This document shows, in pieces, positions 6,319-43,740 of a stretch of 64,000 nucleotides of DNA. How positions within the stretch are numbered: the stretch's first letter is position 1; every line of letters starts with the position of its first letter. Where the stretch lies: assembly GCF_000711885.1 (NCBI RefSeq), contig NZ_JONK01000020.1:1-64000 (forward strand). The letters are read 5' to 3'. A model generated the notes under the pieces. That model saw only the letters and a program-made list of their open reading frames with translations. It did no database searches and was not told where the DNA came from. The translations under genes were made by a program, and so were the position numbers. This DNA comes from Chromobacterium haemolyticum DSM 19808 (GTDB lineage: Bacteria > Pseudomonadota > Gammaproteobacteria > Burkholderiales > Chromobacteriaceae).

Positions 6319-6340
6319 TAAGCGTCGCGACTGCGGCAAT

Positions 6341-6369
6341 AAAAAACGGGCTGGATATCCAGCCCGTTT
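6341..6369 (-). terminator. Terminator of the gabTD transcript
   Basis: A perfect 26-bp palindrome (AAACGGGCTGGAT/ATCCAGCCCGTTT, 6344-6369) is followed, on the minus strand, by a T-run (the A6 at 6341-6346). It lies 18 bp beyond the gabD stop codon. Confidence 0.88.
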
Positions 6370-6386
6370 CGCATTGGCGGGGCGCT

Positions 6387-9176: not shown

Positions 9177-9316
9177 CTGCTATCTCCTCGACGTTGTGCG
9201 GTCGGCACCGCGTCTGGCGGACCGCCGCGAATCGGTGTCGGAGCGATGCCGGTCTATCGTGGCGCCGGCTGGCCGCTCCGTGGCTTGGCTTTCATTATTC
9301 TTGTCTGACCGTCTCA

Positions 9317-9454
9317 GCACCTGTTTACGATCTGTTGCGCGTTGGCGGAATAGTTTAGACAAGGGCGTTAAAAACGGTTTCGAAATGCGTACATTCCGCT
9401 CTCTTAGCCGCAATGCCTTGTCTCGCCCACGCTCGCGATATCGTAAGCACGTTC
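9317..9454 (-). mobile_element. Degenerate copy of the 143-bp MITE-like element
   Basis: A 138-bp copy in minus orientation, flanked by TCA on both sides (9314-9316 and 9455-9457). The ends GCACCTGTTTACG and CGTAAGCACGTTC are imperfect inverted repeats matching those of the copy at 59773. The internal landmarks TTTCGAAATG and CCTTGTCTCGC are kept, with small deletions between. It has no coding capacity. Confidence 0.75.
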
Positions 9455-9508
9455 TCAGGCATTCTATGTTTGTGTTTAGCAAAAAGCTACACGCGCACTA
9501 AAAAATTA

Positions 9509-9672
9509 AACACCTGTTGCGCGGATGCCAGCGGAGGAGCGTGGAAGGGGCGGGGAGACGGCGGCCATGCCTGCTGGCATGGCTGCGGAGAGCCTAAGCC
9601 AAGGCGCGCCGACGCAGGCAGTACTTGAGTACGGCAAGGCGGCGCGCAGCATCAGGGGTTTGTTAGCCACTC
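9509..9672. mobile_element. Composite element sharing the left half of the 6085 element
   Basis: About 164 bp between TTA (9506-9508) and TTA (9673-9675). The right end, read on the minus strand, is GAGTGGCTAACAAA followed by TGATGCTGCG and the block GCCGTACTCAAGTACTGCC, matching 6085-6155 almost base for base. The left end AACACCTGTTGCGC resembles the GAACCTGTT end of the other elements. The left boundary is less certain than the right one. Confidence 0.55.
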
Positions 9673-9682
9673 TTAGCGGGGG

Positions 9683-10993: not shown

Positions 10994-11043
10994 TTGTGTT
11001 TATATGCTCGGTTTGTTTTGTCTCGTCGCGCGGCAAGGTGTCG

Positions 11044-14000
11044 TCAGGCCTGAGGCCGCCGTACCTTGAACCATTGCGCGTACAGCGCCGGCAGGAACAG
11101 CAGGGTTAGCACCGTGGCCACCAGCAGCCCGCCCATGATGGCCACGGCCATCGGTCCCCAGAACGTGCTGCGGCTCAGCGGGATCATCGCCAGGATGGCC
11201 GCCAATGCCGTCAGCATGATAGGTCTAAAACGTCTAATTGTGGAGCCGACAATAGCGTGCCAGGGATCGATGCCGTCGCGAATGTCGTGTTCGATCTGGT
11301 CAACTAGGATAACCGAGTTGCGCATGATCATGCCGGACAGCGCGATGACCCCCAGCATGGCGACGAAGCCGAACGGCGCGCTGAAAGCGATCAGGGTCAG
11401 CGTCACGCCTATCATGCCCAGCGGCGCGGTCAGCAGCACCATGATGCTGCGTTGCACGCTGTGCAGCTGCAACATCAGCAGGGTTATCACCACCACCAGC
11501 ATCAACGGCGCCACCGCCGCAATGGCTTTTTGCGATTTGGCGCTGGATTCCATGCTGCCGCCGGTTTCGATGTGATAGCCCAGCGGCAGCGTCTGCTCCA
11601 GCGCTTGCATCTTGGGCAGCAGTTGCCGGGAGATGTCCGCGCCCTGGGCGCCTTCCGCCGGATCCGCGCTCACCGTGATGGCGGGCAGGCGGTTGCGCCG
11701 CCAGATGATGCTTTCTTCCGGCTGGTATTCGATGTGTCCTATCTGCGACACCGGCACAAAGCGGCCGCTGCCGGTTTGTATCATCAAGTTGCCGAGGCCG
11801 GCGACATTCTTGCGTTCGTCCGGATTGAGCCGCGCGACGATGGCGATGGCCTGGTCGCCTTCGCGGAAGCTGGTCACGGTGGCGCCGGAAATCAGCATCT
11901 GCAATTGCTGCGACAATTGCTGAGAGGACAGGCCGAGCGCGCGCGCCTTGTCCTGATCGATGCGGATGCGCAGGGCCTTCACCTGCTCGCCCCAGTTGAT
12001 ATTGACCTGGCGGGTGGATGGATGCGCGCGCATCAGCGCTTCCACCTGGGCGGCGATGGCGCGCACCTTGACGTGGTCCTCGCCCATCACCCGAAATTGC
12101 ACCGCGTAGCCCACCGGCGGACCGTTCTCCAGCCGGGTCACCCGGCCGCGGACATTGGGGAAGTCGTTGTCGAATAGCTTTTCCAGCCGTTTCTTCACGT
12201 CTTCGCGCACATGTTCGTCCCGGGTCATCAACATCAGCTGCGCATAGTTCAAGTGTTGCAGCTGCTGATCCAGCGGCAGATAGAAACGCGGGCTGCCGCT
12301 GCCGACGTAGCTGGTGACGCTGACGATGTCCGGGTCGCGTTTGAGCAGGGCTTCCAGTTTTTCAACTTCGCGCTCGGTGGCCTGATGACTGGCGCCGCGC
12401 GGCAGCCACATGTCCACCATCAGTTCGGGCCTGTTGGACGAGGGGAAAAACTGTTGAGCCACCAGCAGCTTGAAGGCCAGCAGGGATAGCACGAAGGCGG
12501 CCAGCGTCAGGGCGATCACGGTCTTGCGCCGTTCCAGGCACCATTCCACCACCCTGCGGAAGCGGCGGTAGAACGGTTTGTCGTAAACATCGTGCGCCTC
12601 GTGGTGCTGGAGGTTTTCCGGCAACAGCTTGTAGCCCAGGTAGGGGGTGAACACCACCGCGACGATCCAGGACAGCACCAGCGCGATGCCGACCACGGCG
12701 AACAGGCTGAACACGTATTCGCCGGCGTTGGACTTGGCGATGCCCACGGGCAGGAAAGTGGCGGCGGTGATCAGGGTGCCGGTCAGCATGGGGAAGGCGG
12801 TGCTGGTGTAGGCGAAGGTGGCGGCCTGAAACTTGCTCCAGCCTTGTTCCAGCTTCAGTGCCATCATTTCCACCGCGATGATGGCGTCGTCCACCAGCAG
12901 CCCCAGCGCGATGATCAAGGAACCCAGCGAGATACGCTGCAGGTCGATATTGAAGAAATACATGGCCAGAAAAGTCATCGCTAGCACCAGCGGGATGGAC
13001 AGCGCCACCACGATGCCGGTGCGCAGGCCCAGGCTGAAGAAGCTGACGGCCAGCACGATGACTACGGCCTCCACCAGCGAACGCATGAATTCGCCAACCG
13101 CGTTCTTGACCACCTTGGGCTGGTCGGAAACCGAATGGATTTCCAGGCCCACGGGCATCTTGGACTGGATCTGCAGCATGGCGGCATCCAGGTTTTTGCC
13201 CAAGCGCAGCACGTCGCCGCCGCCCTTCATGGTGATGGCCATGCCCAGCACCGGTTTGCCGTTGAAGCGCATGGTGCTGAGCGGCGGATCAATGTAGCCG
13301 CGTTTGACCGAGGCGATGTCGCCCAGGCGGAAGGTTTTGCCGTTGACGGTGACCGGGGTGGCGGCGATAGCCTCCACGCTGGCGTAGTTGCCGGTGGGGC
13401 GGACCCAGATGCGGTCGCTGGCAGTTTCGAACACGCCGGATGGCGTCATCGCGTTTTGTTGTTGCAAGGCTTTCCAGATGGCGCTGGTGTCCAGCCCCAG
13501 CGAAGCCAGCTTGGCGGTGGACAGGTCCACGTAGACGCGCTGCTCCTGCACGCCCAGCAGGCTGACCTTGGCCACGTCCGGCACGCGCAGGATCTCGCGT
13601 TTGGCGTCCTCCAGGTATTGGCGCACTTCCTCGTAGCTGAAACCGTCGCCGGCGAAGGCGTAGATATTGCCGAAGGTGTCGCCGAACTCGTCGTTGAAGA
13701 ACGGTCCCTGGACTTCCGCGGGCAGGGTGGCGCGGATATCGCCTATCTTCTTGCGCACCTGGTACCACAGTTGTTGCACGTTCTTGGGCGGCACGTCTTC
13801 GCGCACCGAAATCAGCAGCAGGCTCTCGCCCGGTTTGGTATAGCTTTGGACGTAGTCAATCTCGCCCATCTCCTGCAGCTTTTCCTCCAGCTTGTTGGTG
13901 ACCTGCTGTTCCATCTCCAATGTGCCGGCGCCGGGCCAGTAAGCTTGCACCAGCATGGCCTTGAAGGTGAATTCCGGGTCTTCCTTCTGGCCCAGCTGGG

Positions 14001-30644: not shown

Positions 30645-31592
30645 TCAGGCTTGTGCCGTTGCGGCTGAAGGCGGGATAAGCGGGGAATGGCCGCGGCCGT
30701 AGAGGCGGCATTCCGCCGCCAGCGCCAGCAGATTGGGATCGCGCTCGCGTTTGCTGGCCAAGAGTAAATGGATGTGCTGGGTCCGCCGATACGGCGCGGC
30801 CAGCGGAATCAGCTGCAACTGCGGGCTGAACAAGGCCACGCGGCGCGGCAACAAGGAATAGCCGATGCCGCCGCACACCAGATTGCTCAGCGAAAAAATG
30901 TCGGCCACCCGCATCACCACATTCGGCAGGACGCCGGCTATGGCGAAGGCTTGCATGAAATCCTGGCCGGTGGCGAAGCTGTCATGCAGGCTGACAAAAG
31001 GCAGCTTGGGCAGCGTGGCCAAATCGATGCTTTCGGATTGCCCCAAGGGCGAGTTGAGCGGCGCGGCGAAGCAGATTTCGTCTTCGAACATGGGGATGCT
31101 CACCCAGGCCGGGTCGGCGCGTGTTTCCCGCGCGACAATGACCACAGCGTCCAGCACGCCATCGGCCAGCTTTTGCCGCAGTTCCTGATTGGAGGCCAGC
31201 GTCAGGTCCACCGTCAATTGCGGCCTGCGTGTTTTCAGGCCCGCCAAAATGCGTGGCAGCGCGCCTGCGGTCAGCGAGTACAGTGCGCCCACCCGCAGCC
31301 TGGCCGAACCGAAGCCCGCAGCCTCCCGAGTCTGGCGCACGCCATGCTCCAACTCCAGCAAAGCCCGTTCAGCGCTGAGCAGCAAAGCCTGGGCGGACTC
31401 CAATGGAATCAGCCGGCGGCCGCTGCGCTGGAACAACGGGCAGGCCAAGGCTTGCTCCAGCGAGTGCAGGGCGCGGTGCACGCTGACCGGGCTTTGTCCC
31501 AGCGCTTCCGCCGCGCGGCTCATATTTCCCAAGCGCATGAAGGCCAGGAACACCCCCAGCTTTTTCAACGTGACTTCATCGTGCGTCCACAT
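30645..31592 (-). CDS. mdcR: LysR-family regulator of malonate utilisation
   Basis: A 315-aa LysR-type activator. The N-terminal helix-turn-helix is unmistakable (LKKLGVFLAFMRLGNMSRAAEALGQSPVSVHRALHSLEQAL, about 8-48), followed by the two-lobed effector domain. It is divergent from mdcA across 130 bp containing an inverted repeat, the standard mdcR-mdc arrangement; malonate is the expected inducer. The start MWTHDEVTLKK at 31592 follows GGGAGGTCGC and matches MdcR proteins; an upstream in-frame start is less likely. Confidence 0.9.
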   Translation of the reverse strand: MWTHDEVTLKKLGVFLAFMRLGNMSRAAEALGQSPVSVHRALHSLEQALACPLFQRSGRRLIPLESAQALLLSAERALLELEHGVRQTREAAGFGSARLRVGALYSLTAGALPRILAGLKTRRPQLTVDLTLASNQELRQKLADGVLDAVVIVARETRADPAWVSIPMFEDEICFAAPLNSPLGQSESIDLATLPKLPFVSLHDSFATGQDFMQAFAIAGVLPNVVMRVADIFSLSNLVCGGIGYSLLPRRVALFSPQLQLIPLAAPYRRTQHIHLLLASKRERDPNLLALAAECRLYGRGHSPLIPPSAATAQA

Positions 31593-31620
31593 GCGACCTC
31601 CCAGCGGCTGGCTGAAGCCA

Positions 31621-31643
31621 ATCATTAACTTATTAGTAATGAT
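31621..31643. promoter_or_regulatory. Candidate MdcR operator
   Basis: ATCATTA (31621-31627) and TAATGAT (31637-31643) form a perfect inverted repeat with a 9-bp centre, midway between the divergent mdcR and mdcA starts (29 bp from mdcR, 80 bp from mdcA). It has the T-N11-A style symmetry of LysR-type sites. Confidence 0.55.
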
Positions 31644-31722: not shown

Positions 31723-33378
31723 ATGGGCGATACGCGCGGCTGGGAACACCGGCGGCAGGACAAGCGGCGGCGAGTGGAGCGCTTGGGGGCGATGGCGAAG
31801 GGCAAGCTGTTGGCCGGCGCCGACATCGTCCCCGCTTTGCAGGCCTTGTTGCGGTCGGGCGACAAGGTGGTGCTGGAGGGCAACAACCAGAAACAGGCCG
31901 ATTTCCTGTCGCGGGCCTTGGCGCAGCTGGACCCGGAGCGGGTGCGGGATTTGCACATGATCATGCCCTGCGTCAGCCGCAGCGAGCACCTGGACGCGTT
32001 CGAGCGCGGCATCGCCCGCCGGCTGGATTTTTCTTTCGCCGGGCCGCAAAGCCTGCGCATCAGCCAACTGTTGGAAGACGGCTTGTTGGAGATCGGCGCG
32101 ATTCATACATATATCGAGCTGTATGCGCGGCTGCTAGTGGATTTGCAGCCCAATGTGGCCTTGGTGGCCGCTTTCAGCGCCGATCGCGCCGGCAATCTCT
32201 ATACCGGTCCCAGCACCGAGGACACTCCGGCGCTGGTGGAGGCCGCCGCCTTCAGCAACGGCATCGTCATCGCCCAGGTCAACCAAGTGGTCGACGACGC
32301 ATCCGAACTGCCGCGCGTCGACATCCCCGGCGACTGGATAGACTTCGTGGTGGCGGCGGATCGGCCTTTCCATATGGAGCCCTTGTTCACCCGCGATCCG
32401 CGCCACATCAAACCCTTGCAGGTTCAGATGGCGATGCTGGCGATACGCGGCATCTACCAGCGGCATCAGGTGCAGTCGCTGAATCACGGTATCGGCTTCA
32501 ATACCGCCGCCATCGAATTGATCCTGCCCACCTATGGCGAGCGCTTGGGCTTGAAGGGGCGGATCTGCCGGCATTGGGCGCTGAATCCGCATCCGACGCT
32601 GATTCCCGCGATTGAGAGCGGCTGGGTCGACAGCGTGCACTGTTTTGGCAGTGAAGTGGGCATGGAGAACTACGTCGCGGCGCGGCCGGATGTGTTCTTT
32701 ACCGGCCGCGACGGCGCTTTGCGCTCCAACCGCCTGCTGTGCCAACTGGCCGGGCAATACGGCGTGGATCTGTTCATCGGCGCCTCGCTGCAAGTCGATG
32801 GCGACGGCAACTCCTCTACCGTGACGAGTGGTCGCCTGGCTGGTTTTGGCGGCGCGCCCAATATGGGCCATGATCCGCGCGGCCGTCGTCACGCCACGCC
32901 GGCCTGGCTGGCCATGCGCCCCCCAGCGCCGGAACCGATGCTGGAGCGCGGCCGCAAGCTGGTGGTGCAGATGGTGGAAACCTTTCAGGAAAACATGCAG
33001 CCCACCTTCGTCGAAACGCTGGACGCGTTGGCGGTAGGCCGCAGCAGCGGCATGCCGCTGGCCCCGGTGATGATTTACGGGGACGACGTGACCCATCTTC
33101 TGACCGAGGACGGCATTGCCTATCTCTATCGGGCGGAATCGCTTGAGCAACGACAGCAGATGATCGCGGCGGTGGCTGGAGTCACGCCGGTAGGGTTGCG
33201 CAGCGATCCCGCGCAAAGGGCAAGCTTGCGCCGGCAGGGGCTGGTGGCCTTGCCGGAGGACCTGGGCGTGGCGCGTGGCGAGGCCGGCCGCGAATGGCTG
33301 GCGGCCAAAAGCATGGCCGAACTGGTGGAGTGGTCCGGCGGCCTGTACCGGCCTCCCGCGCGGTTTCGGAGCGGATGA
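31723..33378 (+). CDS. mdcA: Malonate decarboxylase alpha subunit
   Basis: A 551-aa CoA-transferase-like subunit that moves malonate onto the acyl carrier protein, releasing acetate in exchange (acetyl-ACP:malonate ACP transferase). The near full-length match to MdcA is visible in KGKLLAGADIVPALQALLRSGDKVVLEGNNQKQADFL, LHMIMPCVSRSEHLD, FTGRDGALRSNR and SGRLAGFGGAPNMGHDPRGRRHATPAW. TGGAGGA precedes the ATG. First gene of the operon; its stop overlaps the next start (ATGA). Confidence 0.96.
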   Translation: MGDTRGWEHRRQDKRRRVERLGAMAKGKLLAGADIVPALQALLRSGDKVVLEGNNQKQADFLSRALAQLDPERVRDLHMIMPCVSRSEHLDAFERGIARRLDFSFAGPQSLRISQLLEDGLLEIGAIHTYIELYARLLVDLQPNVALVAAFSADRAGNLYTGPSTEDTPALVEAAAFSNGIVIAQVNQVVDDASELPRVDIPGDWIDFVVAADRPFHMEPLFTRDPRHIKPLQVQMAMLAIRGIYQRHQVQSLNHGIGFNTAAIELILPTYGERLGLKGRICRHWALNPHPTLIPAIESGWVDSVHCFGSEVGMENYVAARPDVFFTGRDGALRSNRLLCQLAGQYGVDLFIGASLQVDGDGNSSTVTSGRLAGFGGAPNMGHDPRGRRHATPAWLAMRPPAPEPMLERGRKLVVQMVETFQENMQPTFVETLDALAVGRSSGMPLAPVMIYGDDVTHLLTEDGIAYLYRAESLEQRQQMIAAVAGVTPVGLRSDPAQRASLRRQGLVALPEDLGVARGEAGREWLAAKSMAELVEWSGGLYRPPARFRSG

Positions 33379-34589
33379 TGCCGGGCCGGATGAGCTGTGC
33401 TCCCGAGCCGAGGACAGGACATGTGTCGCCTACGGCTTTGGCCGACGCCGCCGTGGCGGCCTTGTTGGCGGAGGCGACATTGACGCCCAAGCCCGGCCTG
33501 GTCGACCTGCGAGGCGGCGGCGCGCACCGGGACATGGATTGGGCGCTGCTGTGCCGGTCGGCGCGGGCGCTGCGGCCTGGCTTTCTGGCCATGGCGGAGG
33601 CGGGAGAACAGGGAGCAGGAGAGGACCGATTGCCGGAGCTGCGCGCCCGGATCGGTGCGGCTGGAAGGCAAGCCGAGGCGGCGATGCTGGCCGCCAGCGG
33701 CGGCGTCAATACGCATCGCGGCGCGATTTGGGCTCTGGGTCTGCTGGTGACGGCCGCCGCCGCTTGGCCTGTGCTGCCGCTAAGGGCCTTGGGAGCGCGG
33801 GCTGGGGAGCTGGCGCGGGTCGAGGATGCCGGCGCGCCGCCGCTGCTTGCCTTGCCGGGTGGGCGCGTCTGTGCCCGCTATGGAGTGGGCGGCGCGCGCC
33901 ATCAGGCGGCAGCCGGTTTCCCGCAGGTGATGGATCACGGACTGCCGGCCCTGCAAGCGGCGCGGCGGCGCGGCGCGGCTGAGACGCCGGCGCGGCTGGA
34001 CGCGCTGCTGGCGATCATGCGGCAGCTGGACGACACCTGTTTATTGGCCCGAGGCGGCAGGTTCGGCCTGGAACTGGCGCAAGACGGCGCGGCGGCGGTA
34101 TTGCAGGCGGGGGGCTGCGCCAGTCAAGAGGGATGGCGGCTGTTGTTGAAGCTGGACCAGCGCCTGCGCCGCCGCCGTTTGTCGCCGGGCGGCGCGGCGG
34201 ATTTGCTGGCGGCGACCTTACTGTTGGACAGCCTGGCGCAGACGCAGGCAAGGGAGGACTACGAGATGGAACGCTACACATTCACTTACTCGGCAGCGGC
34301 TGGTCCTGGTGTCCGGCGGAGCTTGGCCGGGGTCGTGGGATCCGGGGATTTGGAGGTACTGCTGGAGCCGTCAACGTCCGGCGTGAGCCAAGTCATGGTG
34401 AGCACCGCCTTGGCGGGAACCGAACTCATTTGGCGCAGGGTGCTGGAGCGCGTGTTCGCTGAGACGGCCTGGCCGCCGGTCCGTTTGGAAATCCATGACT
34501 TCGGCGCCAGCCCCGGGGTGATCCGGTTGCGGCTGGCGCAAGCGCTGGAGACTGGCCGGCGGACAGGGGGCGACGATGGCCGCTGTTGA
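33375..34589 (+). CDS. mdcB: Triphosphoribosyl-dephospho-CoA synthase MdcB, fused in frame to MdcC
   Basis: The first about 297 residues are MdcB, which makes the prosthetic-group precursor 2'-(5''-triphosphoribosyl)-3'-dephospho-CoA from ATP and dephospho-CoA: TPKPGLVDLRGGGAHRDMDW, SGGVNTHRGAIWALGLL and LDALLAIMRQLDDTCLLARGG are conserved blocks. No stop separates it from the MdcC region; the frame reads GCAAGGGAGGACTACGAG into the MdcC ATG at 34266. TAC there could be a former TAG or TAA. The product is thus a 404-aa MdcB-MdcC fusion unless a base is wrong. The start ATG overlaps the mdcA stop; 33378 and 33390 are alternatives. Confidence 0.82.
   Translation: MMPGRMSCAPEPRTGHVSPTALADAAVAALLAEATLTPKPGLVDLRGGGAHRDMDWALLCRSARALRPGFLAMAEAGEQGAGEDRLPELRARIGAAGRQAEAAMLAASGGVNTHRGAIWALGLLVTAAAAWPVLPLRALGARAGELARVEDAGAPPLLALPGGRVCARYGVGGARHQAAAGFPQVMDHGLPALQAARRRGAAETPARLDALLAIMRQLDDTCLLARGGRFGLELAQDGAAAVLQAGGCASQEGWRLLLKLDQRLRRRRLSPGGAADLLAATLLLDSLAQTQAREDYEMERYTFTYSAAAGPGVRRSLAGVVGSGDLEVLLEPSTSGVSQVMVSTALAGTELIWRRVLERVFAETAWPPVRLEIHDFGASPGVIRLRLAQALETGRRTGGDDGRC
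34266..34589 (+). CDS. mdcC: Malonate decarboxylase acyl carrier protein (delta subunit)
   Basis: The 107-residue C-terminal part of the fused frame, with its own start: ATG at 34266 with GGGAGG 8 bases upstream. It is a full-length MdcC, beginning MERYTFTY and containing GVVGSGDLEVLLEPSTSG, where the serine in GSGDLEVL is the expected attachment site of the phosphoribosyl-dephospho-CoA group, and the closing IHDFGASPGVIRLRLAQALE. Independent translation is likely, giving free MdcC besides the fusion. It overlaps mdcD by 14 bp. Confidence 0.8.
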   Translation: MERYTFTYSAAAGPGVRRSLAGVVGSGDLEVLLEPSTSGVSQVMVSTALAGTELIWRRVLERVFAETAWPPVRLEIHDFGASPGVIRLRLAQALETGRRTGGDDGRC

Positions 34590-35445
34590 GATTCTGCAAC
34601 GTGACCGCCTGAGCGAGCATGGCGCGCGCCAGCGGCTGAAAAAGCTGTTGGACCCCGGTAGTTTCCGAGAGCTGTTGGATCCGTTTCAGCGGCTGGAGTC
34701 GCCATGGCTGGAGCGGCAGGGCATCGTCGCTCAGTCCGACGACGGCGTGGTGGCGGCGCGAGGCCGGCTGGATGGCCATGAAGTCGCCGCGCTGGCGATA
34801 GAGGGCGCTTTCCTCGGCGGCAGCCTGGGCGAAGTCTCCGGCGCCAAGATCGCCGGCATGCTGGAACTGGCCGCCGAGGCCAACCGTCACGGCCGGCCGA
34901 CGGCCGCCTTGCTATTGCTGGAAACCGGCGGAGTCAGGCTGCAGGAAGCGAATCTGGGCTTGGCCGCGATTGCCGATATCCATGCAGCCATCGTCGACCT
35001 GCGCCGCTACCGGCCGGTGATCGCGGTCAGCGTTGGACCGGTGGGGTGTTTTGGCGGCATGGGCATCGCCGCCGGCTTATGCAGCTATTTGTTGCTGACC
35101 CGCGAGGCGCGCCTGGGGCTGAATGGGCCGGCGGTGATCGAGCAAGAGGCCGGGCCAGCGGAGTACGACGCAAGCGACCGCGAGTTGATCTGGAGCCTGA
35201 GCGGCGGCGAGCAGCGCCATGCCACCGGCTTTGCCGATGTGTGTTGCGTCGATGACGCGGCGGCGATCCGCCGGCAAGTGCAGGACTGGTTGCGACGAGG
35301 CCCGCCGCCGCGGCACCGCAGCCAGCGCATTGATGATTACCGCGCGGTGCTGGCGCGGCTGGACGCGGCGGAACAGGCTGACGCGGGGCGAGCGCGGAGC
35401 GCGTTCTCCCTGACGCAAGGCGATGTCATGGAAGGAGGGCTGTGA
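34576..35445 (+). CDS. mdcD: Malonate decarboxylase beta subunit
   Basis: A 289-aa carboxyltransferase-fold subunit which, with MdcE, decarboxylates malonyl-ACP to acetyl-ACP. MdcD hallmarks: GSFRELLDPFQRLESPWLERQGIVAQSDDGVVAARG, EGAFLGGSLGEVSGAKIAGMLELA, and VGPVGCFGGMGIAAGLCSYLLLTREARLGLNGP, an oxyanion-type Gly stretch. The stop overlaps the next start (TGATG), but that next gene is an M20 hydrolase rather than mdcE, which lies 2.8 kb further on. Confidence 0.95.
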   Translation: MAAVEILQRDRLSEHGARQRLKKLLDPGSFRELLDPFQRLESPWLERQGIVAQSDDGVVAARGRLDGHEVAALAIEGAFLGGSLGEVSGAKIAGMLELAAEANRHGRPTAALLLLETGGVRLQEANLGLAAIADIHAAIVDLRRYRPVIAVSVGPVGCFGGMGIAAGLCSYLLLTREARLGLNGPAVIEQEAGPAEYDASDRELIWSLSGGEQRHATGFADVCCVDDAAAIRRQVQDWLRRGPPPRHRSQRIDDYRAVLARLDAAEQADAGRARSAFSLTQGDVMEGGL

Positions 35446-36866
35446 TGATGACTGGACAACAAGTCGCCGCGCAGGCGCAGGCTTTCTTTGACCGCGGCGA
35501 GCTGCGGCAAGCGTTGGCGCGGCGGGTGGCGATGGCGACCGAAAGCCAGGATCCGCAGGGCAGGGAGAGTTTGCTGCGGTATTTGCAAACTGAAATCGCG
35601 CCAGCCCTGAGCGCCATCGGTTTTACCTGCGAATTGCTCGACAATCCGGTGCAAGCCGATTGCCCGTTTTTGCTGGCGGAACGGCGGGAAGGGGCGGATT
35701 TGCCAACCTTGCTGTGTTACGGCCACGGCGACGTGGTGTTCGGGCAGGCGGAACATTGGCGCGAGGGCTTGCAGCCTTGGACGCTGCTTGAGGAGGGCGA
35801 TCGCTGGTATGGCCGCGGCAGCGCCGACAACAAGGGTCAGCACACGATTAATTTCGCAGCCTTGCAACAGGTGTACCAGGCCAGGGGCGGGCGCTTGGGC
35901 TTTAACTGCAAGATCCTGTTCGAAATGGGCGAGGAAATCAGCTCTCCCGGCCTGGCGGAAATCTGTCTTCGGCATCGGCGGCGCTTGGCGGCGGATATTT
36001 TCATCGCCTCGGACGGCCCGCGTTTGAGCGCGGAACGGCCCACCCTGTTTTTAGGCTCTAGGGGCTGTATTAATTTTAGGCTCAGTCTGCAGGCGCGCCA
36101 ACAGGCTTATCACTCCGGGAACTGGGGCGGTCTCTTGAGCAACCCCGCCATTCAATTGGCCAACGCCATCGCCTGCCTGGTGAATCAGCATGGGCAGATT
36201 CAGGTGAGCGCCTTGAAGCCTCCGGCGCTGAGCGCCGGCCTGAAGGCGTTGTTAAGCGATATTGCGCTTGAGCCGCAGCCTGGTGATCCGCTGATTGATC
36301 CGGACTGGGGCGAGGCCGGCTTAAGTCCGACGGAGAGACTTTACGGCTGGAATAGCCTGGAGGTGTTGTCTTTCCTGGCCGGGGATCCGGTGAAACCAGT
36401 CAATGCGATTCCTCCTTCCGCCGCTGCGGTGTGCCAGCTACGTTTCGTCGTAGGCACGGATTGGCAAGCCTGCGGTCAGCATGTGCGCAGGCATTTGGAC
36501 GCGCATGGTTTTGAACAGGTGGAGGTTGAGGTATTGAGTAGCTCCCCCGCCACGCGTTTTGATCCGGAAAGCCGATTGGTGTCGTGGGCCTTGCAGATTA
36601 TTCAACAAGCTTCCGGGAAAAAACCGGCCTTGCTGCCCAATATCGGCGGTTCGCTGCCGAACGAGGTGTTTGCCGACATCCTGCAACTGCCCACTTTATG
36701 GATTCCCCATTCCTATCCCGCTTGTGGCCAGCATGGCGCGAATGAACATATGTTGAAATCCATCGCCAGAGAAGGTTTGCAAATCATGACCCGGCTTTTT
36801 TGGGAATTGGGAGAGTCGGGAAAACATAGGGTGCCATTGTGCGGCAAGGATTTGGCCGAGCGGTGA
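35445..36866 (+). CDS. M20-family metallohydrolase inside the mdc operon
   Basis: A 473-aa M20 peptidase/deacylase. Metal ligands are in place: H94-x-D96 in CYGHGDVVFG, bridging D128 in GRGSADNKGQH, catalytic E163 and E164 in FEMGEEISSPG, and the C-terminal His in CGQHGANEH. The lid domain lies between about 205 and 330. No signal peptide. Relatives cleave amide bonds of N-acyl amino acids, dipeptides or carbamoyl compounds. GGAGG precedes the start, which overlaps the mdcD stop by one base, so it is translationally coupled. Placement suggests release of malonate from an N-malonyl or related amide; that is inference. Base composition is lower in GC than the flanking mdc genes. Confidence 0.85.
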   Translation: MMTGQQVAAQAQAFFDRGELRQALARRVAMATESQDPQGRESLLRYLQTEIAPALSAIGFTCELLDNPVQADCPFLLAERREGADLPTLLCYGHGDVVFGQAEHWREGLQPWTLLEEGDRWYGRGSADNKGQHTINFAALQQVYQARGGRLGFNCKILFEMGEEISSPGLAEICLRHRRRLAADIFIASDGPRLSAERPTLFLGSRGCINFRLSLQARQQAYHSGNWGGLLSNPAIQLANAIACLVNQHGQIQVSALKPPALSAGLKALLSDIALEPQPGDPLIDPDWGEAGLSPTERLYGWNSLEVLSFLAGDPVKPVNAIPPSAAAVCQLRFVVGTDWQACGQHVRRHLDAHGFEQVEVEVLSSSPATRFDPESRLVSWALQIIQQASGKKPALLPNIGGSLPNEVFADILQLPTLWIPHSYPACGQHGANEHMLKSIAREGLQIMTRLFWELGESGKHRVPLCGKDLAER

Positions 36867-36941
36867 AATAGGTGGTCATTTCAGGCATGGCTAACAATAT
36901 ATTGCCTGCGAATAGCGTTCGCCGGGCAAAGAGGATAGAAC

Positions 36942-38255
36942 ATGGCTAATTCTGTTGCGGTTGCGCCGAGTGAGGAAAAGCTGGGCAAGCCCAATTTATA
37001 CCGTACCTTGATAGCCACATGCATAGGCAATGGCCTGGAGTGGTTTGATATCACCATTTATGTGTTTTTTGCCAGCTATATCGGCCATGCCTTTTTCCCT
37101 AGCGAGGATGTCAGCAATTCCCTGTTGATCACATTCGCCAGCTTTGGCATGTCTTTCATGATTCGCCCTTTGGGCGCGATTGTCTTGGGCGCTTATGCGG
37201 ATAGGGCCGGTCGCAAGGCTTCTTTGCTGGTGTCGATCTCGCTGATGATGTTGGGCAGTTTGATGATTGCCGTGATGCCCGGTTATGCCGTCATCGGCAT
37301 GGCCGCGCCGGTGCTGATCGTGCTGGCGCGGCTGATCCAGGGTTTCTCGGCGGGAGGGGAGTTTGGCAGCTCCACCGCTTTTCTGGTGGAACACTTCCCC
37401 GAGCGCAAGGCATTCATCGCCAGCTGGCAGTTTGCCACGCAAGGGGCCAGCACCTTGTTGGCGGCCGGGTTCGGCATGGGCTTGGCGAGCGCTTTGAGCG
37501 AGCAGGATATACAAGATTGGGGGTGGCGCATTCCCTTCTTTTTTGGCCTGCTGATCGGCCCGGTGGGGCTGTATATTAGGCGCCATATCGATGAATCTCC
37601 CGGTTTTCACCAGGGTTTGCAAGATGAGCAGCCGCTGAAAAATATATTTTTACGGCAAAAAACCTGATTTTTTACCGCTATCGGTTTAATGATGGTCTCC
37701 ACCGCCATTAATTATGTCATTAGTTATATTCCCACCTATGCCACTCAAACCCTGAAGTTGCCCAGTCTTGACGCTTATACCTCCACCTTTGTCGGGGGAG
37801 TGATTCTGACGGTGGTCACCCCGCTGGCTGGACTGTGGGCGGAAAAAATAGGGCGTATGACTTTGATGAAATGGTCGGTGCTGCTGGTAGTGCTCACCAC
37901 GTATCCAGGCTTCTATCTATTGGGCCAGCAGCTCAGTCAAACCAGTCTGATATTTTTGGTGATGTGGCTGGCTTTGCTCAAGGCGCTGTATTTTTCCGTG
38001 ATTCCTTCGGTGATGGCGGATTTGTTTCCGCCGGCAAGCCGGGCCACAGGCATTGCCTTGAGTTACAACATCGCCGTGACTCTATTTGGCGGTTTTGCGC
38101 CATTGATCTGCATCTGGTTGATTAAATCGACCGGCGACGATTTGGCCCCTGCTTATTATCTGGTGGTTTTGGGGATATTCAGTTTGGCGGCGGTTTATCA
38201 GGCAAGGCGGAGTATTGAACAGAAAAAAACCGGCGCCGGCGTCGGTCTGGAATGA
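36942..38255 (+). pseudogene. MHS-type MFS transporter interrupted by an in-frame TGA
   Basis: Two in-frame halves of one transporter: 36942-37667 (241 aa, first six helices, with the family motif GAYADRAGRKASLL and RLIQGFSAGGEFGSSTAFLVE) and, 21 bp later in the same frame, 37689-38255 (second six helices). The only interruption is TGA at 37665-37667; reading through it gives 437 codons, the normal metabolite:H+ symporter length. The stop lies between A6 and T6 runs, so either a nonsense change, paired indels or a sequencing error is possible. GGATAGAAC precedes the ATG. It would have imported an organic acid for the adjacent enzymes. Confidence 0.8.
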
Positions 38256-38290
38256 ACTTGGCGACCATCGACTGAAGGAGGCGTGAAGAG

Positions 38291-39121
38291 ATGGGAGAGC
38301 ATGGGATATCGCGGAATCGGGCCAGCCGCTGGCTGGCGGCGCTGAGCGGTGCGCCAGCGCCGGACAGTGGCGCCTATGGCACGGCGCTGCGGGTGGTCGA
38401 TGCCAGCCTGAGGGGACAGGCCGCGCGCTATATCGCCCTGACGCCGGATCCGGACAACCGCTTTGTTCGGGCCCGCCATGGGGAGGTGGGGCTGGAACAG
38501 GGCTGGGCGCTGGCGCAAGCGGTGAGGGATGGCATGGCGGCGGATGCCGGCTGCGCCGACAAACGCGCCATCATCGCGGTGATCGATACTCCGGGCCAGG
38601 CTTATGGCCGCCGAGAGGAGGCTTACGGCATCCACCTGGCCTTGGCGGCGGCAGTGGACGCCTATGCCAGCGCGCGGCTGGCCGGCCACCCGGTGATTGG
38701 CCTGATGGTTGGCCAGGCCATGTCCGGAGGCCTGCTCGCCCACGGTCATCAGGCCAATCGTTTGCTGGCCTTGGACGCCGCCGAGGTCATTACGCAGGCG
38801 ATGGGCAAGCAGGCGGCGGCGCAGGTGACGCTGCGCTCGGTGGAGGCGCTGGAAGCCTTGGCTGCGGAGTTGCCGCCCATGGCTTACGACATCCGCAGTT
38901 ATGCCGGCTTGGGGCTGCTGTGGCGCTTATTGCCGGTGGAGGCCATCGACGCCCCCACGGCGGCCGACATCGTTCGGGTTCGCATTGCCTTGGGCGAGGC
39001 CTTGGCCGATATCCGGCAGGCTGGCGATCAGGGCCGGCGGCAAGGCGCGGGGATGGCGCAAAGGGCGTCGCGCCTGGTGCGGCAACGGCTGCGCGAGCAA
39101 TGGGAGCAGAGCTCATGGTGA
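38291..39121 (+). CDS. mdcE: Malonate decarboxylase gamma subunit
   Basis: A 276-aa partner of MdcD in the malonyl-ACP decarboxylase. Conserved blocks include AIIAVIDTPGQAYGRREEAYGIHLALAAAVDAYASARLAGHPVIGLMVGQAMSGGLLAHGHQANRLLALDAAEVITQAMGKQAAAQVTLRSV (about 95-185). GAAGGAGGCG precedes the ATG. Normally it follows mdcD directly; here two foreign genes separate them. The stop overlaps the madL start, as in intact mdc-mad clusters. Confidence 0.94.
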   Translation: MGEHGISRNRASRWLAALSGAPAPDSGAYGTALRVVDASLRGQAARYIALTPDPDNRFVRARHGEVGLEQGWALAQAVRDGMAADAGCADKRAIIAVIDTPGQAYGRREEAYGIHLALAAAVDAYASARLAGHPVIGLMVGQAMSGGLLAHGHQANRLLALDAAEVITQAMGKQAAAQVTLRSVEALEALAAELPPMAYDIRSYAGLGLLWRLLPVEAIDAPTAADIVRVRIALGEALADIRQAGDQGRRQGAGMAQRASRLVRQRLREQWEQSSW

Positions 39122-39363
39122 CTTATTGCGTGGTCTTACTGGCGGCCTGCGTTTTGTGTGGCCTGCCGCTGGGGGACGTGCTGGGGTGGCTGATCGGCGT
39201 CACAGCCGATGTCGGCGGCGTGGGCTTCTCCATGTTGCTGCTGATCGCCAGCAGCGAGTGGCTGCGTGGTCGGGGGGCGCTGGTAGTGTTTCACGCAGCG
39301 CAGCAGGTCGTAAATACGTTCTTAAGTCCCCAACCAATAGCAGGAGGCCGCTATGTCGCTTGA
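39115..39363 (+). pseudogene. madL: Truncated malonate transporter subunit MadL
   Basis: The ATG at 39115 overlaps the mdcE stop. Residues 1-55 match MadL: MVTYCVVLLAACVLCGLPLG, then VTADVGGVGFSMLLLIASSEWL, giving one and a half membrane helices. After residue 55 homology stops, and the frame continues through a remnant of the TNA-target mobile element to a stop at 39361-39363. The family is about 130 residues or more, and the partner madM is missing. The protein cannot be a working MadL; uptake must depend on the MFS gene that follows. Confidence 0.72.
39283..39321 (+). mobile_element. Right-end remnant of the 143-bp element at the madL break
   Basis: The stretch ending AGCAGGTCGTAAATACGTTC, followed by TTA (39322-39324), matches the right end of the family (AGCAGATCGTAAACCGGTTC then TCA at 59916). 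Upstream, GTGTTTCACGCAGCGCAGCA parallels 43771-43789 of the intact copy. The left two thirds are absent. It lies exactly where MadL homology ends, consistent with a deletion ending in or promoted by the element. Confidence 0.6.
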
Positions 39364-40678
39364 GACTTCTTCCCGTTCTCGCATTCAACAGGTGGCGGCA
39401 GCCATCATAGGCAATGCCTTGGAATGGTACGACTTCATCATCTACGGCTTCATGACTGGGGTGATTTCCAAGCAGTTCTTTCCCGCCGATGGTCAGGAGT
39501 ACACCTCTTTGCTGCTCGCCACAGCCACTTTCGGCGCCGGTTTTGTGATGCGGCCGGTGGGCGGAGTGCTGTTGGGCGTCTACGCGGATCGCAAAGGCCG
39601 CAAGGCGGCATTGCAACTCATCATGGGATTGATGAGCCTGGCCATCCTCATCATTGTGCTGGCGCCGCCTTATGCCGCCATTGGAGTGGCCGCGCCGGCG
39701 CTCATTCTGCTGGCGCGCTTGATCCAGGGCTTCGCCACCGGCGGCGAGTACGCCAGCTCCACCGCTTTTCTGGTGGAAATGGCGCCGCCGGGCAAGCACG
39801 GCTTGTATGGTTCCTGGCAGTTGTTCGGCCAGTCGCTTGCGGTGTTGACCGGTGCGGCCATGGGCGCCTTGGTCAGCTATGCTTTCACCCCGCCGCAATT
39901 GGAGGCGTGGGCTTGGCGCTTGCCCTTTGTCTTTGGTTTGCTGATTGTGCCGGTGGGATTGTGGATGCGGCGTCATATGGAGGAAACCGAAGCCTTCGTC
40001 CACGCCAGCCGTCAGCCGGCCGCCACGCCGCTTGCGCTGGGTTTGGCCGGCAACATGGGGGGTATGTGGACGACGCTGGCGCTGATCGTGCCGGGCACCG
40101 CGGTGTTCTATGTGGTCCTGATCAGCATGCCTGGCTATGCCAGCCGTCAGTTTGGCCTGCCGCTGGAGCAGGCTTTCGCGGCCCAGACCGTTGCGGTGGC
40201 AGTGCTGACTCTGGTGACGCCGTTGTCCGGGTGGTGGTCGGACCGAATTGGACGGTGGCCGATCCTGCTGGGCGCGCAGGGGATGATGCTGCTGCTGGTC
40301 TATCCGCTGTTCTGGTGGCTGGAGCAGACGCCTAGCATTGAGCGTTTGCTGGCGGTTCAAGTGACCATGTGCGTGTTGCAAGGCCTGTGCAATGGCCCGG
40401 TACCGGCCGCGGTCAGCGAACTGTTCCCGGTCAAGGTGCGCTCCACGGCGATGTCGATTTCCTACAATCTGGCGGTGATGCTGTTTGGCGGTTTCGCGCC
40501 CTTCATCGTCACCTTGCTCACTCAGCACAGCGGCTCCTCATTGGCGCCGGCCTTCTATCTGATGTTCTGTCTGCCAATTGGACTGCTGGGCGCTTACCGG
40601 CTGCGCGCGCCGGCCCGCGCCGTCGGATTCGAGAACCGCGGCCAGCCGCCCCACAAGGAAGGAGCAAGCCGTGTTTAG
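39353..40678 (+). CDS. MHS-family MFS transporter
   Basis: A 441-aa, 12-helix proton symporter of the metabolite:H+ family. Visible: GNALEWYDFIIYGF at helix one, GVYADRKGRKAAL in loop 2-3 (MFS signature), RLIQGFATGGEYASSTAFLVE, and a repeat signature GWWSDRIGRWPIL in loop 8-9. AGGAGG sits just before the ATG, which overlaps the end of the madL remnant. Relatives carry citrate, 2-oxoglutarate, proline or shikimate. Here it probably replaced MadLM and may import malonate or the substrate of the neighbouring amidase. It resembles, but is not identical to, the interrupted transporter at 36942. Confidence 0.9.
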   Translation: MSLETSSRSRIQQVAAAIIGNALEWYDFIIYGFMTGVISKQFFPADGQEYTSLLLATATFGAGFVMRPVGGVLLGVYADRKGRKAALQLIMGLMSLAILIIVLAPPYAAIGVAAPALILLARLIQGFATGGEYASSTAFLVEMAPPGKHGLYGSWQLFGQSLAVLTGAAMGALVSYAFTPPQLEAWAWRLPFVFGLLIVPVGLWMRRHMEETEAFVHASRQPAATPLALGLAGNMGGMWTTLALIVPGTAVFYVVLISMPGYASRQFGLPLEQAFAAQTVAVAVLTLVTPLSGWWSDRIGRWPILLGAQGMMLLLVYPLFWWLEQTPSIERLLAVQVTMCVLQGLCNGPVPAAVSELFPVKVRSTAMSISYNLAVMLFGGFAPFIVTLLTQHSGSSLAPAFYLMFCLPIGLLGAYRLRAPARAVGFENRGQPPHKEGASRV

Positions 40679-42134
40679 GATCGAAACGCCTGCCGGCGTA
40701 CGGGAAATTGTTGAGTTGGACGGGGGCGAGCTGTCCGCCGCCTTGCACGAGCGGCGCTTGTCCTGCCGCGATGCGATGCAGGCTTATCTGCAGCAGATTG
40801 AAACTCTGAATCCGGGCGTCAAGGCCGTGGTGTCGCTACAACCCGTCGACGTCTTGCTGGCTGAAGCCGAGCGTTGCGACGCCGAGCTGAGCCGCGGTTT
40901 CAGCCGCGGCTGGATGCATGGCTTCCCGCTGGCGGTCAAGGACCTGGCCGCCGCGCGCGGTTTGATCGCCAGCATGGGCTCGCCCCTGTATCGCGGCCAA
41001 GTGTCCACGCAGGACGACATCATGGTGGAGCGCATGCGTGCGGCGGGGGCCATCATTATCGGCAAGACCAACACACCGGAGTTCGGTGCCGGCTCCCATA
41101 CTTACAACCCGGTATTCGGCGCTACCGGTAATGCCTATGATCCGGCGCGCAGCGCCGGCGGCAGCAGCGGCGGCGCTGCGGTGGCCCTGGCTTTGCGCAT
41201 GCTGCCGGTGGCGGACGGCAGCGACATGATGGGCTCCTTGCGCAACCCGGCGGCGTTCAACAATATTTTTGGTTTCCGTCCCAGCGCCGGCGTCGCGCCG
41301 CTGGGCCCCTCGCCGGAGCTCTACCTTCAGCAACTCGCTACCGTGGGGCCGATGGCGCGGTCGGTGCCGGACCTGCTGGCCTTGCTGCGCATTCAGGCCG
41401 GGGCGGACCCGCGCGCCCCGCTGGCCTACGATCCGCCGGATTGGCGGCAGCCGTTGGAGCGTGACCTGCGCGGCGCGCGGCTGGGCTGGCTTGGCGACTA
41501 CGATGGCTATTTGCCGATGGAAGACGGTGTGCTGGCGTTGTGCCGCGGCGCCTTGGCGGATTTCGAAGCGCTGGGTTGCGCGGTGGCGCCGGCGTCGCCG
41601 GCTTTTGATATGAGCGCGCTATGGCAAAGCTGGCAAACCTTGCGTCACTGGTTGGTGGCCGGCAGCTTGGAGCACCATTATCGCGACCCGGAGCAGCGAC
41701 GGTTGTTGAAGCCGGAACTGAAATGGGAAATCGAGGGCGGACTTGGGCTGAGCGCGCTGGATGTCTATCAGGCGTCCAAGGTGCGCAGCGATTGGTATCG
41801 CGCCATGCTGGCGCTGTTCGAAGACTACGATTACTTGCTGTTGCCCAGCGCCCAAGTGTTTCCATTCGAGTTGGAGCGGGCCTGGCCTGAGCGGATTGCC
41901 GGTGTGCGGATGAGCAGCTACCACCGCTGGATGGAAGTCGTGCTGGCCGCGACCATGGCCGGCTTGCCGGCGGTCAGCGTGCCGGTGGGTTTTAATCGGC
42001 AAGGGTTGCCGATGGGCATGCAGATCATTGGGCGGCCGCGCGCGGATCTGGCGGTGTTGCAACTGGCCCATGGTTATGATCTGCGTACCGCCTGGACCCG
42101 CCGCAGGCCGCCGCCGGCTTTGAGGGCGGTCTGA
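40671..42134 (+). CDS. Amidase-signature hydrolase inside the mdc operon
   Basis: A 487-aa amidase-signature enzyme with an intact Ser-cisSer-Lys triad: K90 in FPLAVKDLAA, the cis-Ser in SAGGSSGGAAVAL (165/166) and nucleophile S189 in GSDMMGSLRNPAAF. The family hydrolyses amides; rhizobial malonamidase E2, which releases malonate from malonamate, belongs to it, making a malonyl amide the attractive substrate here (inference). GTG start at 40671 after AAGGAAGGAG, overlapping the transporter stop by 8 bp; mdcG starts 2 bp after its stop, so it is fully embedded in the operon. Confidence 0.87.
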   Translation: MFRIETPAGVREIVELDGGELSAALHERRLSCRDAMQAYLQQIETLNPGVKAVVSLQPVDVLLAEAERCDAELSRGFSRGWMHGFPLAVKDLAAARGLIASMGSPLYRGQVSTQDDIMVERMRAAGAIIIGKTNTPEFGAGSHTYNPVFGATGNAYDPARSAGGSSGGAAVALALRMLPVADGSDMMGSLRNPAAFNNIFGFRPSAGVAPLGPSPELYLQQLATVGPMARSVPDLLALLRIQAGADPRAPLAYDPPDWRQPLERDLRGARLGWLGDYDGYLPMEDGVLALCRGALADFEALGCAVAPASPAFDMSALWQSWQTLRHWLVAGSLEHHYRDPEQRRLLKPELKWEIEGGLGLSALDVYQASKVRSDWYRAMLALFEDYDYLLLPSAQVFPFELERAWPERIAGVRMSSYHRWMEVVLAATMAGLPAVSVPVGFNRQGLPMGMQIIGRPRADLAVLQLAHGYDLRTAWTRRRPPPALRAV

Positions 42135-42136
42135 GC

Positions 42137-42766
42137 ATGCCTTGTTGGCGGGCGCATGATCTGCTGCGGGTGGGCGATGTCGCCGGACTGCGCTTGCCGG
42201 CGGGACGGCCGGACTGGCTGGCCGCGGGCCGGCCATTGGCCGATCTGGTGGTGGTGCGGCGCGATGTGCGCTCCGGCGGCGACATCCCCGTGGGCTTGCG
42301 CGCTTGGCGACGGGAACAGCGGCTGGCGGCCTGGCTGGCGCCGGAGGCGGTGGCGAAGCGGCTGAGCCCGGAAAGCCTGTTGGCGAGGCTGGACGATTGG
42401 AGCGGTTTCAGGCAGCCGGCCCTGTCGGCGCTGGCCGCGTTGCGGCCATGGATGGACGCGTGCGGCTGGGCCTGGGGGCCCACGGGTAGCTGCGGCTTTG
42501 CACTGGCCAGCGGTTTGCCGCTGCTGCGCGCGGACAGCGATCTGGATCTGCTGATCCGGCTGCCGAGCCGGCCTGACCCGGCGCGATTGAACGAGCTGCG
42601 GCGTTTGAATGCGTGGCGGGGGTGCCGGCTAGACGTGCAGATCGATGTCGGCCATGGCGGCTTCGCGTTGGTGGAATGGTTGTCGGCGCGTGGCGACGTG
42701 CTGTTGAAGACCGGGCGGGGGCCGCGCTTGCTTAGCGATCCCTGGAGGTGGGAGGACGGCCTGTGA
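42137..42766 (+). CDS. mdcG: Phosphoribosyl-dephospho-CoA transferase MdcG
   Basis: A 209-aa nucleotidyltransferase that attaches the prosthetic group made by MdcB to the serine of MdcC. GPTGSCGFALASGLPLLRADSDLDLLIRL carries the catalytic Asp pair D135 and D137 in the family pattern. Its TGA stop overlaps the GTG start of mdcH. All partners for holo-ACP formation (MdcB, MdcC, MdcG, MdcH) are therefore present. Confidence 0.92.
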   Translation: MPCWRAHDLLRVGDVAGLRLPAGRPDWLAAGRPLADLVVVRRDVRSGGDIPVGLRAWRREQRLAAWLAPEAVAKRLSPESLLARLDDWSGFRQPALSALAALRPWMDACGWAWGPTGSCGFALASGLPLLRADSDLDLLIRLPSRPDPARLNELRRLNAWRGCRLDVQIDVGHGGFALVEWLSARGDVLLKTGRGPRLLSDPWRWEDGL

Positions 42767-43740
42767 GTGTGCTGTTTGCTTTTCCCGGACAAGGAGAGCG
42801 GCATGCCGGCATGCTGCGCCGCTTGCCGAATCACCCGCTGGTTGCGCAAACCTTGAGTCAGGCGGAGGAGATTCTGGCCGTCGATCCGTTGGTTCTGGAT
42901 GGGGCGGCGGCCTTGCGCTCGACCCGCGCGCATCAGCTTTGCCTGCTGATCGCCGGCGTCGCGGCGACGCGCTTGTTGGCGGTCTCAGGCTGGCGACCGG
43001 CGATGGTGGCGGGGCTTTCCATCGGCGCCTGGCCCGCGGCGGTGGCGGCGCAAGGGCTCAGCTTCGACGACGCTCTGTGTTTGGTGGCCTTGCGCGGCGA
43101 ATTGATGGAGACGGCTTTCCCCGCCGGCTACGGCATGCTGGCGGTGACCGGTTTGAGCCAAGCGCGCTTGGAGAGCCTGATCGCCGCGATACATAGCGCG
43201 GCGACGCCGCTGTATCTGGCCAATCTGAATAGTGATGTCCAGTTCGTGGCCGCTGGACATGAAAACGGCCTGATGGTGTTGGAGACAGCGGCCAAGGCGG
43301 CGGGAGCGCGAGCTTGCCGCCGTCTGGAGCTGGGCGTGCCGTCGCATTGCCCGCTGCTGACGCCGGCGGCCGAAGCATTGCGGGCGGCTATCGCCGGCGT
43401 GGAAATACGCGCCCCGGCCGTGCCCTATCTGAGCGTCGGACGCGCGCGGGTAGTGTTCGGCGCGGAGGCCCTGGCCGATGATCTGGCTTTCAATATGGCG
43501 AGGCAGCAGCGCTGGGCTGACGCGGCGCGCCACGCGTGGGAACGCGGCATGCGCATCTTGCTGGAGCTGCCGCCGGGGCGGGTGTTGAGCGGCCTGAGCC
43601 GGGAGACGTTCCGCGAGGGGAAAGTGCTGGCGTGCGAAGCGATGGATCTGGCGGTGCTTAGAGCCAGTTCAAAATCTAGCGAGCAAGAGCGAGACAAGGC
43701 GAAAACGGCTGAGAAAGCGGAATGGTCAAGTGGTACATGA
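42763..43740 (+). CDS. mdcH: Malonyl-CoA:ACP malonyltransferase MdcH with element-derived C-terminus
   Basis: A FabD-like malonyltransferase that primes MdcC. Nucleophile S86 is in GLSIGAWPAAV and FPGQGERHAGML (7-18) is the N-terminal motif. GTG start at 42763, overlapping the mdcG stop, with GGAGGTGGGAGG upstream. The last 26 residues (from R300, RASSKSSEQERDK onwards) are encoded by a 143-bp mobile element inserted at codon 299/300. Removing the element and one TTA restores a frame ending TNLFKVL after 306 residues. The catalytic core is untouched, so activity may survive. Confidence 0.88.
   Translation: MSVLFAFPGQGERHAGMLRRLPNHPLVAQTLSQAEEILAVDPLVLDGAAALRSTRAHQLCLLIAGVAATRLLAVSGWRPAMVAGLSIGAWPAAVAAQGLSFDDALCLVALRGELMETAFPAGYGMLAVTGLSQARLESLIAAIHSAATPLYLANLNSDVQFVAAGHENGLMVLETAAKAAGARACRRLELGVPSHCPLLTPAAEALRAAIAGVEIRAPAVPYLSVGRARVVFGAEALADDLAFNMARQQRWADAARHAWERGMRILLELPPGRVLSGLSRETFREGKVLACEAMDLAVLRASSKSSEQERDKAKTAEKAEWSSGT

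Follow-up and report, generated by a model that had tools for sequence, protein, structure and literature searches.

Malonate decarboxylase, encoded by mdcABCDE and mdcGH, yields acetate and CO2 from malonate, and malonate is itself a product of malonamidase E2, known from Bradyrhizobium, and of ureidomalonase. In the known operons closest to the one described here, the gene order is mdcABCDE-madLM-mdcGH, as in the relatives' loci L033, L210, L217 and L221; the corresponding Pseudomonas enzyme is the subject of PMC5534430. Malonamidase E2 is reported to be a bacterial enzyme that converts malonamate to malonate and ammonia (PMC8393822). Barbiturase and ureidomalonase together lead to malonic acid and urea (Soong et al., 2001, via PMC3758960), and in the literature passages available on these two enzymes no gene is named for ureidomalonase. 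The present analysis concerns a malonate decarboxylase operon in a 64,000-nucleotide stretch of DNA from Chromobacterium haemolyticum DSM 19808 (contig NZ_JONK01000020.1, positions 1 to 64,000), here called the window.

Like these operons, that of the window has genes for the decarboxylase, the acyl carrier protein (ACP), the prosthetic group and the regulator, all in their customary order; it differs in that two transporter-hydrolase pairs are inserted, madL is truncated, madM is lost and mdcB and mdcC occupy one frame. From open reading frames (ORFs) and Pfam and NCBIfam matches, the order is mdcR on the minus strand, followed by mdcA, mdcB/mdcC, mdcD, an M20 metallohydrolase gene, a transporter gene (MHS1), mdcE, a madL remnant, a second transporter gene (MHS2), an amidase gene, mdcG and mdcH. 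An earlier note on this sequence had placed the M20 gene between mdcD and mdcE, and MHS2 with the amidase between the madL remnant and mdcG; both positions were borne out, and the four relatives have the usual order without inserts. The note overlooked the interruption of MHS1, the absence of madM and the single frame of mdcB and mdcC. It also knew of no described system of this kind. No mdc operon with such hydrolases was found by title or abstract in the open-licence PMC literature, but the composition is not unique, as it recurs in a second genome of the genus (G010).

The interpretation favored here, regarded as reasonably probable from comparative sequence evidence, is that the mdc operon has been extended upstream by salvage of malonyl amides, and that M20-MHS1 represents a second cassette that evolved separately. 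The window amidase has in common with malonamidase E2 the amidase-signature superfamily and, as proposed, the product malonate; none of its 45 solved-structure matches at E<=1e-20 bears the name malonamidase E2.

Linkage of the amidase to malonate genes

A scan of GTDB species genomes for the amidase gave at least 599 stretches with at least 587 relatives, of which the best 80 loci were read from gene maps made with a codon-usage gene caller; the closest named homologue among these 80 is from Aquitalea (Chromobacteriaceae). Residues K90, S165, S166 and S189 are invariant in 48 homologues, and K90, S165/S166 and S189 are taken to be the Lys-cisSer-Ser catalytic triad; R191, Y417, H418 and R419 are invariant as well. 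Other malonate genes (matA/matB, matC, madLM or mdc) occur at 10 of the best 80 loci, with weak MatB-like matches in L054, L097 and L110 left uncounted, and they are adjacent to the amidase in 9. When the amidase was placed at random in the same 10 loci, adjacency was found in 1.3 loci on average, and 9 was reached in none of 20,000 trials.

In five Pseudomonas loci (L042, L043, L045, L048 and L050), matA-matB lie directly downstream of the amidase, and in Halomonas organivorans matA-matB-madL-madM lie upstream of it. Collimonas has madL-madM adjoining the amidase, as does a Woeseiaceae genome, where matB is also next to madL. In a Herbaspirillum genome the amidase stands between mdcA and mdcC-mdcD, and in a Streptomyces a MatC-type carrier is encoded one gene away. 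The MatA profile (PF05292) matched in all five Pseudomonas and in Halomonas, MatB (NF005702) scored above its cut-off in L042, L050, L063 and L107, the remaining matB calls being by similarity only, and further profile matches were obtained for MadL and MadM in L041 and L107, MadM in L063, MdcA in L062 and MatC_N in L114. A matB call in L114 was withdrawn, its synthetase scoring 363.5 against a malonyl-CoA synthase cut-off of 558 and fitting NF005858 better. On an amidase tree of 86 rows, 12 of which carry the malonate label (the window and L030, the G010 operon, included), the label changes 7 times by gain or loss, and well-supported branches force at least 5 of these changes; leaving out L114 would reduce the lineages by one. 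Because its homologues adjoin malonate genes in several unrelated bacteria, the window amidase probably releases malonate from a malonyl amide.

The amidase of the five Pseudomonas clusters, 61-62% identical to that of the window, is likewise coupled to malonate use. These clusters differ from the window in combining the amidase with a CoA-dependent malonate route and an ABC importer rather than with mdc and MHS genes: four genes of one ABC importer precede the amidase (Pfam assignments for L042), and one permease is closest to PotB, below the cut-off for that family. In Ralstonia and P. alcaligenes (L058, L093, L094 and L101), the amidase gene stands side by side with an M20 gene, of another subfamily, and a gene for an MHS-like transporter.

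A probable connection to ureidomalonase

In Rhodococcoides fascians (L110), a gene matching PF09663, the barbiturase/cyanuric acid hydrolase family, lies about 0.1 kb upstream of an amidase homologue that is 54% identical to the window amidase (region 8747-11419). This 21-kb locus also encodes a uracil phosphoribosyltransferase, a xanthine/uracil permease and a molybdopterin-dehydrogenase FAD domain. Barbiturases are reported to have Asn, His, Lys, Val and Ser/Ala at the positions equivalent to AtzD 195, 321, 325, 345 and 346, where cyanuric acid hydrolases have Arg, Thr, Arg, Gly and Gly (PMC3758960). By a by-eye pattern match with AtzD itself outside the alignment, L110 is of the barbiturase type at these positions and L117 of the cyanuric type. 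The L117 gene, which is four genes from the amidase and on the other strand, was set aside. Since the L110 homologue follows a gene with the barbiturase signature, the amidase family probably includes a ureidomalonase, hydrolyzing malonyl-urea to malonate and urea, and the L110 homologue is a candidate for the corresponding gene.

The proposed activity of the window amidase has its product, malonate, in common with ureidomalonase, and differs in its setting. A PF09663 search found no match in any of 13 genomes (that of the window, G010, G032 and 10 with a malonate-linked amidase), and the same search was positive in 4 of 20 further amidase-bearing genomes. A barbiturate route in the window genome was rejected on these grounds, and malonamate or an N-substituted malonamate is the likelier substrate because no barbiturase was found there.

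Recurrence of the composition in a congeneric genome

Among 19 genomes of the genus (the window genome and 18 congeners), mdcA was found in only two, those of the window and G010, and both also carry the amidase and M20 genes. The G010 operon runs mdcA-B-C-D-M20-MHS1 and resumes, after an oppositely oriented amino-acid permease gene, with mdcE-madL-madM-MHS2-amidase-mdcG-mdcH. MHS1, madL and madM are all full frames there, and the flanks of the two operons look unlike by eye. Given a common source, the intact state of the G010 genes indicates that the inserts are older than the loss of madLM and the interruption of MHS1. The recurrence of this composition is more than chance. The permease gene, at 8635-10284 of L030, splits the G010 operon between MHS1 and mdcE.

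A wider sample of 399 genomes of the order contained mdcA in 40, the amidase in 25 and the M20 gene in 49 (both at E<=1e-140), and by coordinates the amidase or M20 gene was close to mdcA only in G000 and G010. Gene order was read for 26 of the 40 mdc loci (the window, L030, L032, L034-L036 and L205-L224) and for L033 of G019, several of which (L032, L220 and L222) stop at contig ends; beyond the window and L030, none of the loci read has M20, MHS1, MHS2 or this amidase inside the mdc operon. In L216 (G190), a more distant amidase gene, whose product is 37% identical to that of the window, lies at 5515-6930, convergent just after mdcH.

The M20-MHS1 cassette

Residues H94, D96, D128, E163, E164 and D190 of the M20 enzyme, presumably its metal-site residues, are invariant among 3 homologues. 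In the order sample, homologues at E<=1e-140 occupy 51 places in 49 genomes, all of which were read, some on short contigs. MHS1 is next to the M20 gene in eight of these places: the window, L030, L145-L148, L150 and L172. In the last six no malonate genes surround the pair, and M20 is flanked on its far side by a divergent LysR-like gene. L156 has a matA-like gene two genes from M20, on the other strand, and weak MatB-like matches in L155 and L184 were left uncounted.

At the genome level, all eight genomes with the cassette have mdcA, compared with 2 of 41 that have M20 without MHS1 and with a background of 40 of 399. This suggests a link of M20-MHS1 with malonate. A search for MHS1-type transporters (E<=1e-110) was positive in 12 of the 399 genomes, 10 of them with mdcA; this marker was given little weight because several copies adjoin other genes, one being beside methylcitrate-cycle-like genes (by eye). 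Within the window's family the amidase was found in 6 of 42 genomes, all among the 7 that have mdcA (p 1.3e-6, ignoring kinship). Four of the genomes with both, of genus g7, have the MHS2-amidase pair away from mdc, the mdc contig of G032 ending soon after mdcC. In the whole sample, mdcA is present in 9 of the 25 amidase genomes (p 2.6e-4).

Transporters of the operon

The earlier note described two MHS-type transporters. Both are MHS-like by best match, TIGR00883, but scores remain under its curated cut-off of 443 (358.7 bits for MHS2; 247 and 107 bits for the pieces of MHS1), and MHS1 is split. An in-frame TGA (37665-37667) divides it into two ORFs of the same frame, 36942-37667 and 37689-38255, where L030 has an intact frame of 436 amino acids. 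The madL remnant matches positions 1-57 of the 118-position MadL profile, after which register with the MadL of L030 is lost; the latter is near complete (PF03817, 163.7 bits over positions 1-117). madM is gone from the window operon, and a MadM profile search of the window's own genome gave no match, nor did 14 control genomes, the model matching MadM of L030, L041, L063 and L107. MHS2 is thus the sole intact transporter gene within the operon, so the strain may depend on imported amides, or MHS2 may carry malonate itself. Two mdc operons of genus g7 (L209 of G283 and L215 of G396) likewise have no madLM between mdcE and mdcG.

Operon organization

Features of the operon and its divergent regulator are collected in Table 1. 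The mdc gene set is complete, comprising the alpha, ACP, beta and gamma subunits with MdcB, MdcG and MdcH. MdcA, MdcB, MdcC (TIGR03130), MdcG and MdcH score over their NCBIfam cut-offs, and MdcD and MdcE are assigned from Pfam; MdcC is slightly below a second model, NF002293 (110.7 vs 115). The MdcR-like protein is 62% identical to the LysR protein encoded near the same operon in L030.

Table 1. Coordinates of the malonate decarboxylase operon and its divergent regulator gene in the window.
Feature	Position	Strand	Support
LysR-type regulator, MdcR-like, divergent from mdcA	30645..31625	-	Pfam LysR_substrate 121.7 bits, HTH_1 54 bits
mdcA, malonate decarboxylase alpha	31723..33378	+	TIGR01110 956 bits, cut-off 789
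mdcB + mdcC, single open frame	33366..34589	+	one ORF with Pfam matches to CitG and ACP
mdcD, carboxyl transferase	34576..35445	+	PF01039 63 bits; 75% to L030 mdcD
M20 metallohydrolase, PRK07079 type	35445..36866	+	NF005478 759 bits, cut-off 330
MHS1, MHS-like transporter gene, interrupted	36942..38255	+	two same-frame ORFs
mdcE, gamma subunit	38291..39121	+	PF06833 195.6 bits
madL remnant	39115..39363	+	PF03817 60.9 bits, profile positions 1-57 of 118
MHS2, intact MHS-like transporter	39353..40678	+	TIGR00883 best match 358.7 bits, cut-off 443; 64% to L030
Amidase-signature hydrolase, PRK07486 type, proposed malonyl-amide hydrolase	40671..42134	+	NF005686 756 bits, cut-off 465
mdcG, holo-ACP synthase	42137..42766	+	TIGR03135 139.9 bits, cut-off 99.7
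mdcH, epsilon subunit	42748..43740	+	TIGR03131 300.8 bits, cut-off 297.9

With start codons at gene junctions chosen by the analyst, the ATG of M20 at 35445 overlaps the mdcD stop (TGA, 35443-35445), the amidase GTG at 40671 overlaps the MHS2 stop (40676-40678), and 2 bp separate the amidase stop (42134) from the mdcG ATG (42137). These junctions, on which the earlier note had drawn, are found in the sequence and fit a single operon under MdcR. A promoter consensus scan gave no plus-strand site and two promoter-like sites, both on the minus strand and about as many as in shuffled sequence (1.8), although a promoter could lie in the 75-bp gap between M20 and MHS1 or in the 35-bp gap before mdcE.

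The frame shared by mdcB and mdcC, in which the start of mdcB is provisional, is uninterrupted, and mdcC may be initiated separately from an ATG at 34266, which has the ribosome-binding-like sequence AGGGAGGA just 5' of it. Such sharing was seen in none of the 26 other mdc loci in which both genes were detected, although mdcB and mdcC are neighbors in at least 13 of these loci.

Proposed pathway and alternative explanations

In the proposed pathway, MHS2 would import an anionic malonyl amide, the amidase would hydrolyze it to malonate and ammonia or an amine, and MdcABCDE-GH would decarboxylate the malonate. The likeliest amidase substrates would be malonamate or N-substituted malonamates, with cleavage of ureidomalonate as a sister reaction in the same enzyme family. 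M20-MHS1 would probably serve an amino acid or dipeptide-like compound that is N-acylated (perhaps N-malonyl); this role of M20 is a guess backed by co-occurrence. The cassette would have entered, between mdcD and mdcE, an operon from which those of the window and G010 both derive, the window later losing MHS1 with M20 staying intact. The suggestion of the earlier note that the operon opens malonyl amides for the decarboxylase thus fares differently for its two hydrolases, being well supported for the amidase by its repeated adjacency to matA, madL/madM and mdcA and by its barbiturase neighbor in Rhodococcoides, and weakly for M20 by the co-occurrence of its cassette with mdcA, no comparable adjacency to malonate genes having been found.

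Several observations weigh against extension of the operon by malonyl-amide salvage. No malonate gene lies in the flanks, of up to 10 kb, at 70 of the best 80 amidase loci, 16 of which are under 15 kb long, and the malonate label of L114 is carried by MatC, since its synthetase fits another subfamily better. Outside the window's family, mdcA is present in 3 of 19 amidase genomes, which is no enrichment (p 0.23). That M20 homologues are generally linked to malonate genes was rejected, since of the 51 M20 places just two, the window and L030, are within mdc. Three genomes of the window's family that have mdcA, G019, G032 and G283, gave no match to this M20 under the thresholds applied. The Fisher probability of 1e-7 for the cassette against mdcA ignores kinship, the eight cassette genomes falling in three families. 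The ratios of nonsynonymous to synonymous rates (dN/dS) between the window and L030, 0.146 for the amidase and 0.087 for M20 (second-lowest in the operon, after mdcA at 0.069), speak in favor of salvage, but the synonymous rate (dS) is near saturation; MHS1 gives 0.116 before and 0.191 after its TGA.

The alternative that survives best, though unlikely, is that one or both pairs are portable transporter-hydrolase cassettes for unrelated amides or dipeptides that landed in mdc and gained only its promoter. Both pairs do occur by themselves elsewhere, MHS2-amidase in L031 and L192-L194 and M20-MHS1, with its LysR-like gene, in the six places described above; apparent Dpp-type peptide importer genes (by eye) accompany M20 in 7 or more of its 51 places, and the six solved-structure matches of M20 are all peptidases, four of them named dipeptidases. 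The cassette also has lower G+C at third codon positions (GC3) than the other operon genes (0.60-0.69 for M20 and MHS1 vs 0.75-0.83), and its transporter gene is interrupted. Against this alternative stand the adjacency of the amidase to malonate genes in several unrelated lineages, the confinement of M20-MHS1 to mdcA genomes in the order sample, and the keeping of the reading-frame overlaps.

A bolder version of malonyl-amide salvage, which must be called doubtful, holds that PRK07486 amidases are a malonyl-amide hydrolase family that serves the mdc, matAB and barbiturate routes alike and includes the ureidomalonase gene, and that in the window a two-amide compound is cleaved by both hydrolases in turn, M20 freeing the amino acid and the amidase then freeing malonate.

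Replacement of the malonate transporter, in which MHS2 took over malonate import after the loss of madLM and the amidase is incidental, is improbable: the madL remnant, the missing madM and the intact MHS2 would be expected from it, but MHS2 and the amidase are also paired outside mdc, and MHS2 probably arrived before madLM was lost, because G010 has full madL and madM genes beside MHS2-amidase. That the window amidase is a ureidomalonase too, ending barbiturate (oxidative pyrimidine) breakdown as urea and malonate, is highly improbable, for the L110 homologue after a barbiturase-signature gene near uracil-related genes favors it but the PF09663 search described above speaks against it.

Implications

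If malonyl-amide salvage is correct, malonate catabolism in some bacteria would start one step earlier than supposed, with malonate being freed from amides, and the decarboxylase, CoA-dependent and pyrimidine routes would be connected through a single amidase family. N-aryl malonamic acids do occur in nature: Fusarium is reported to form them in detoxifying maize benzoxazolinones (PMC4726666). Malonamate, N-substituted malonamates and N-malonyl amino acids are predicted growth substrates for the Pseudomonas, Halomonas and Collimonas strains, and a testable gene candidate for ureidomalonase results. Serial action of M20 and the amidase, if true, would constitute a catabolic pathway for malonyl conjugates that has not been described so far.

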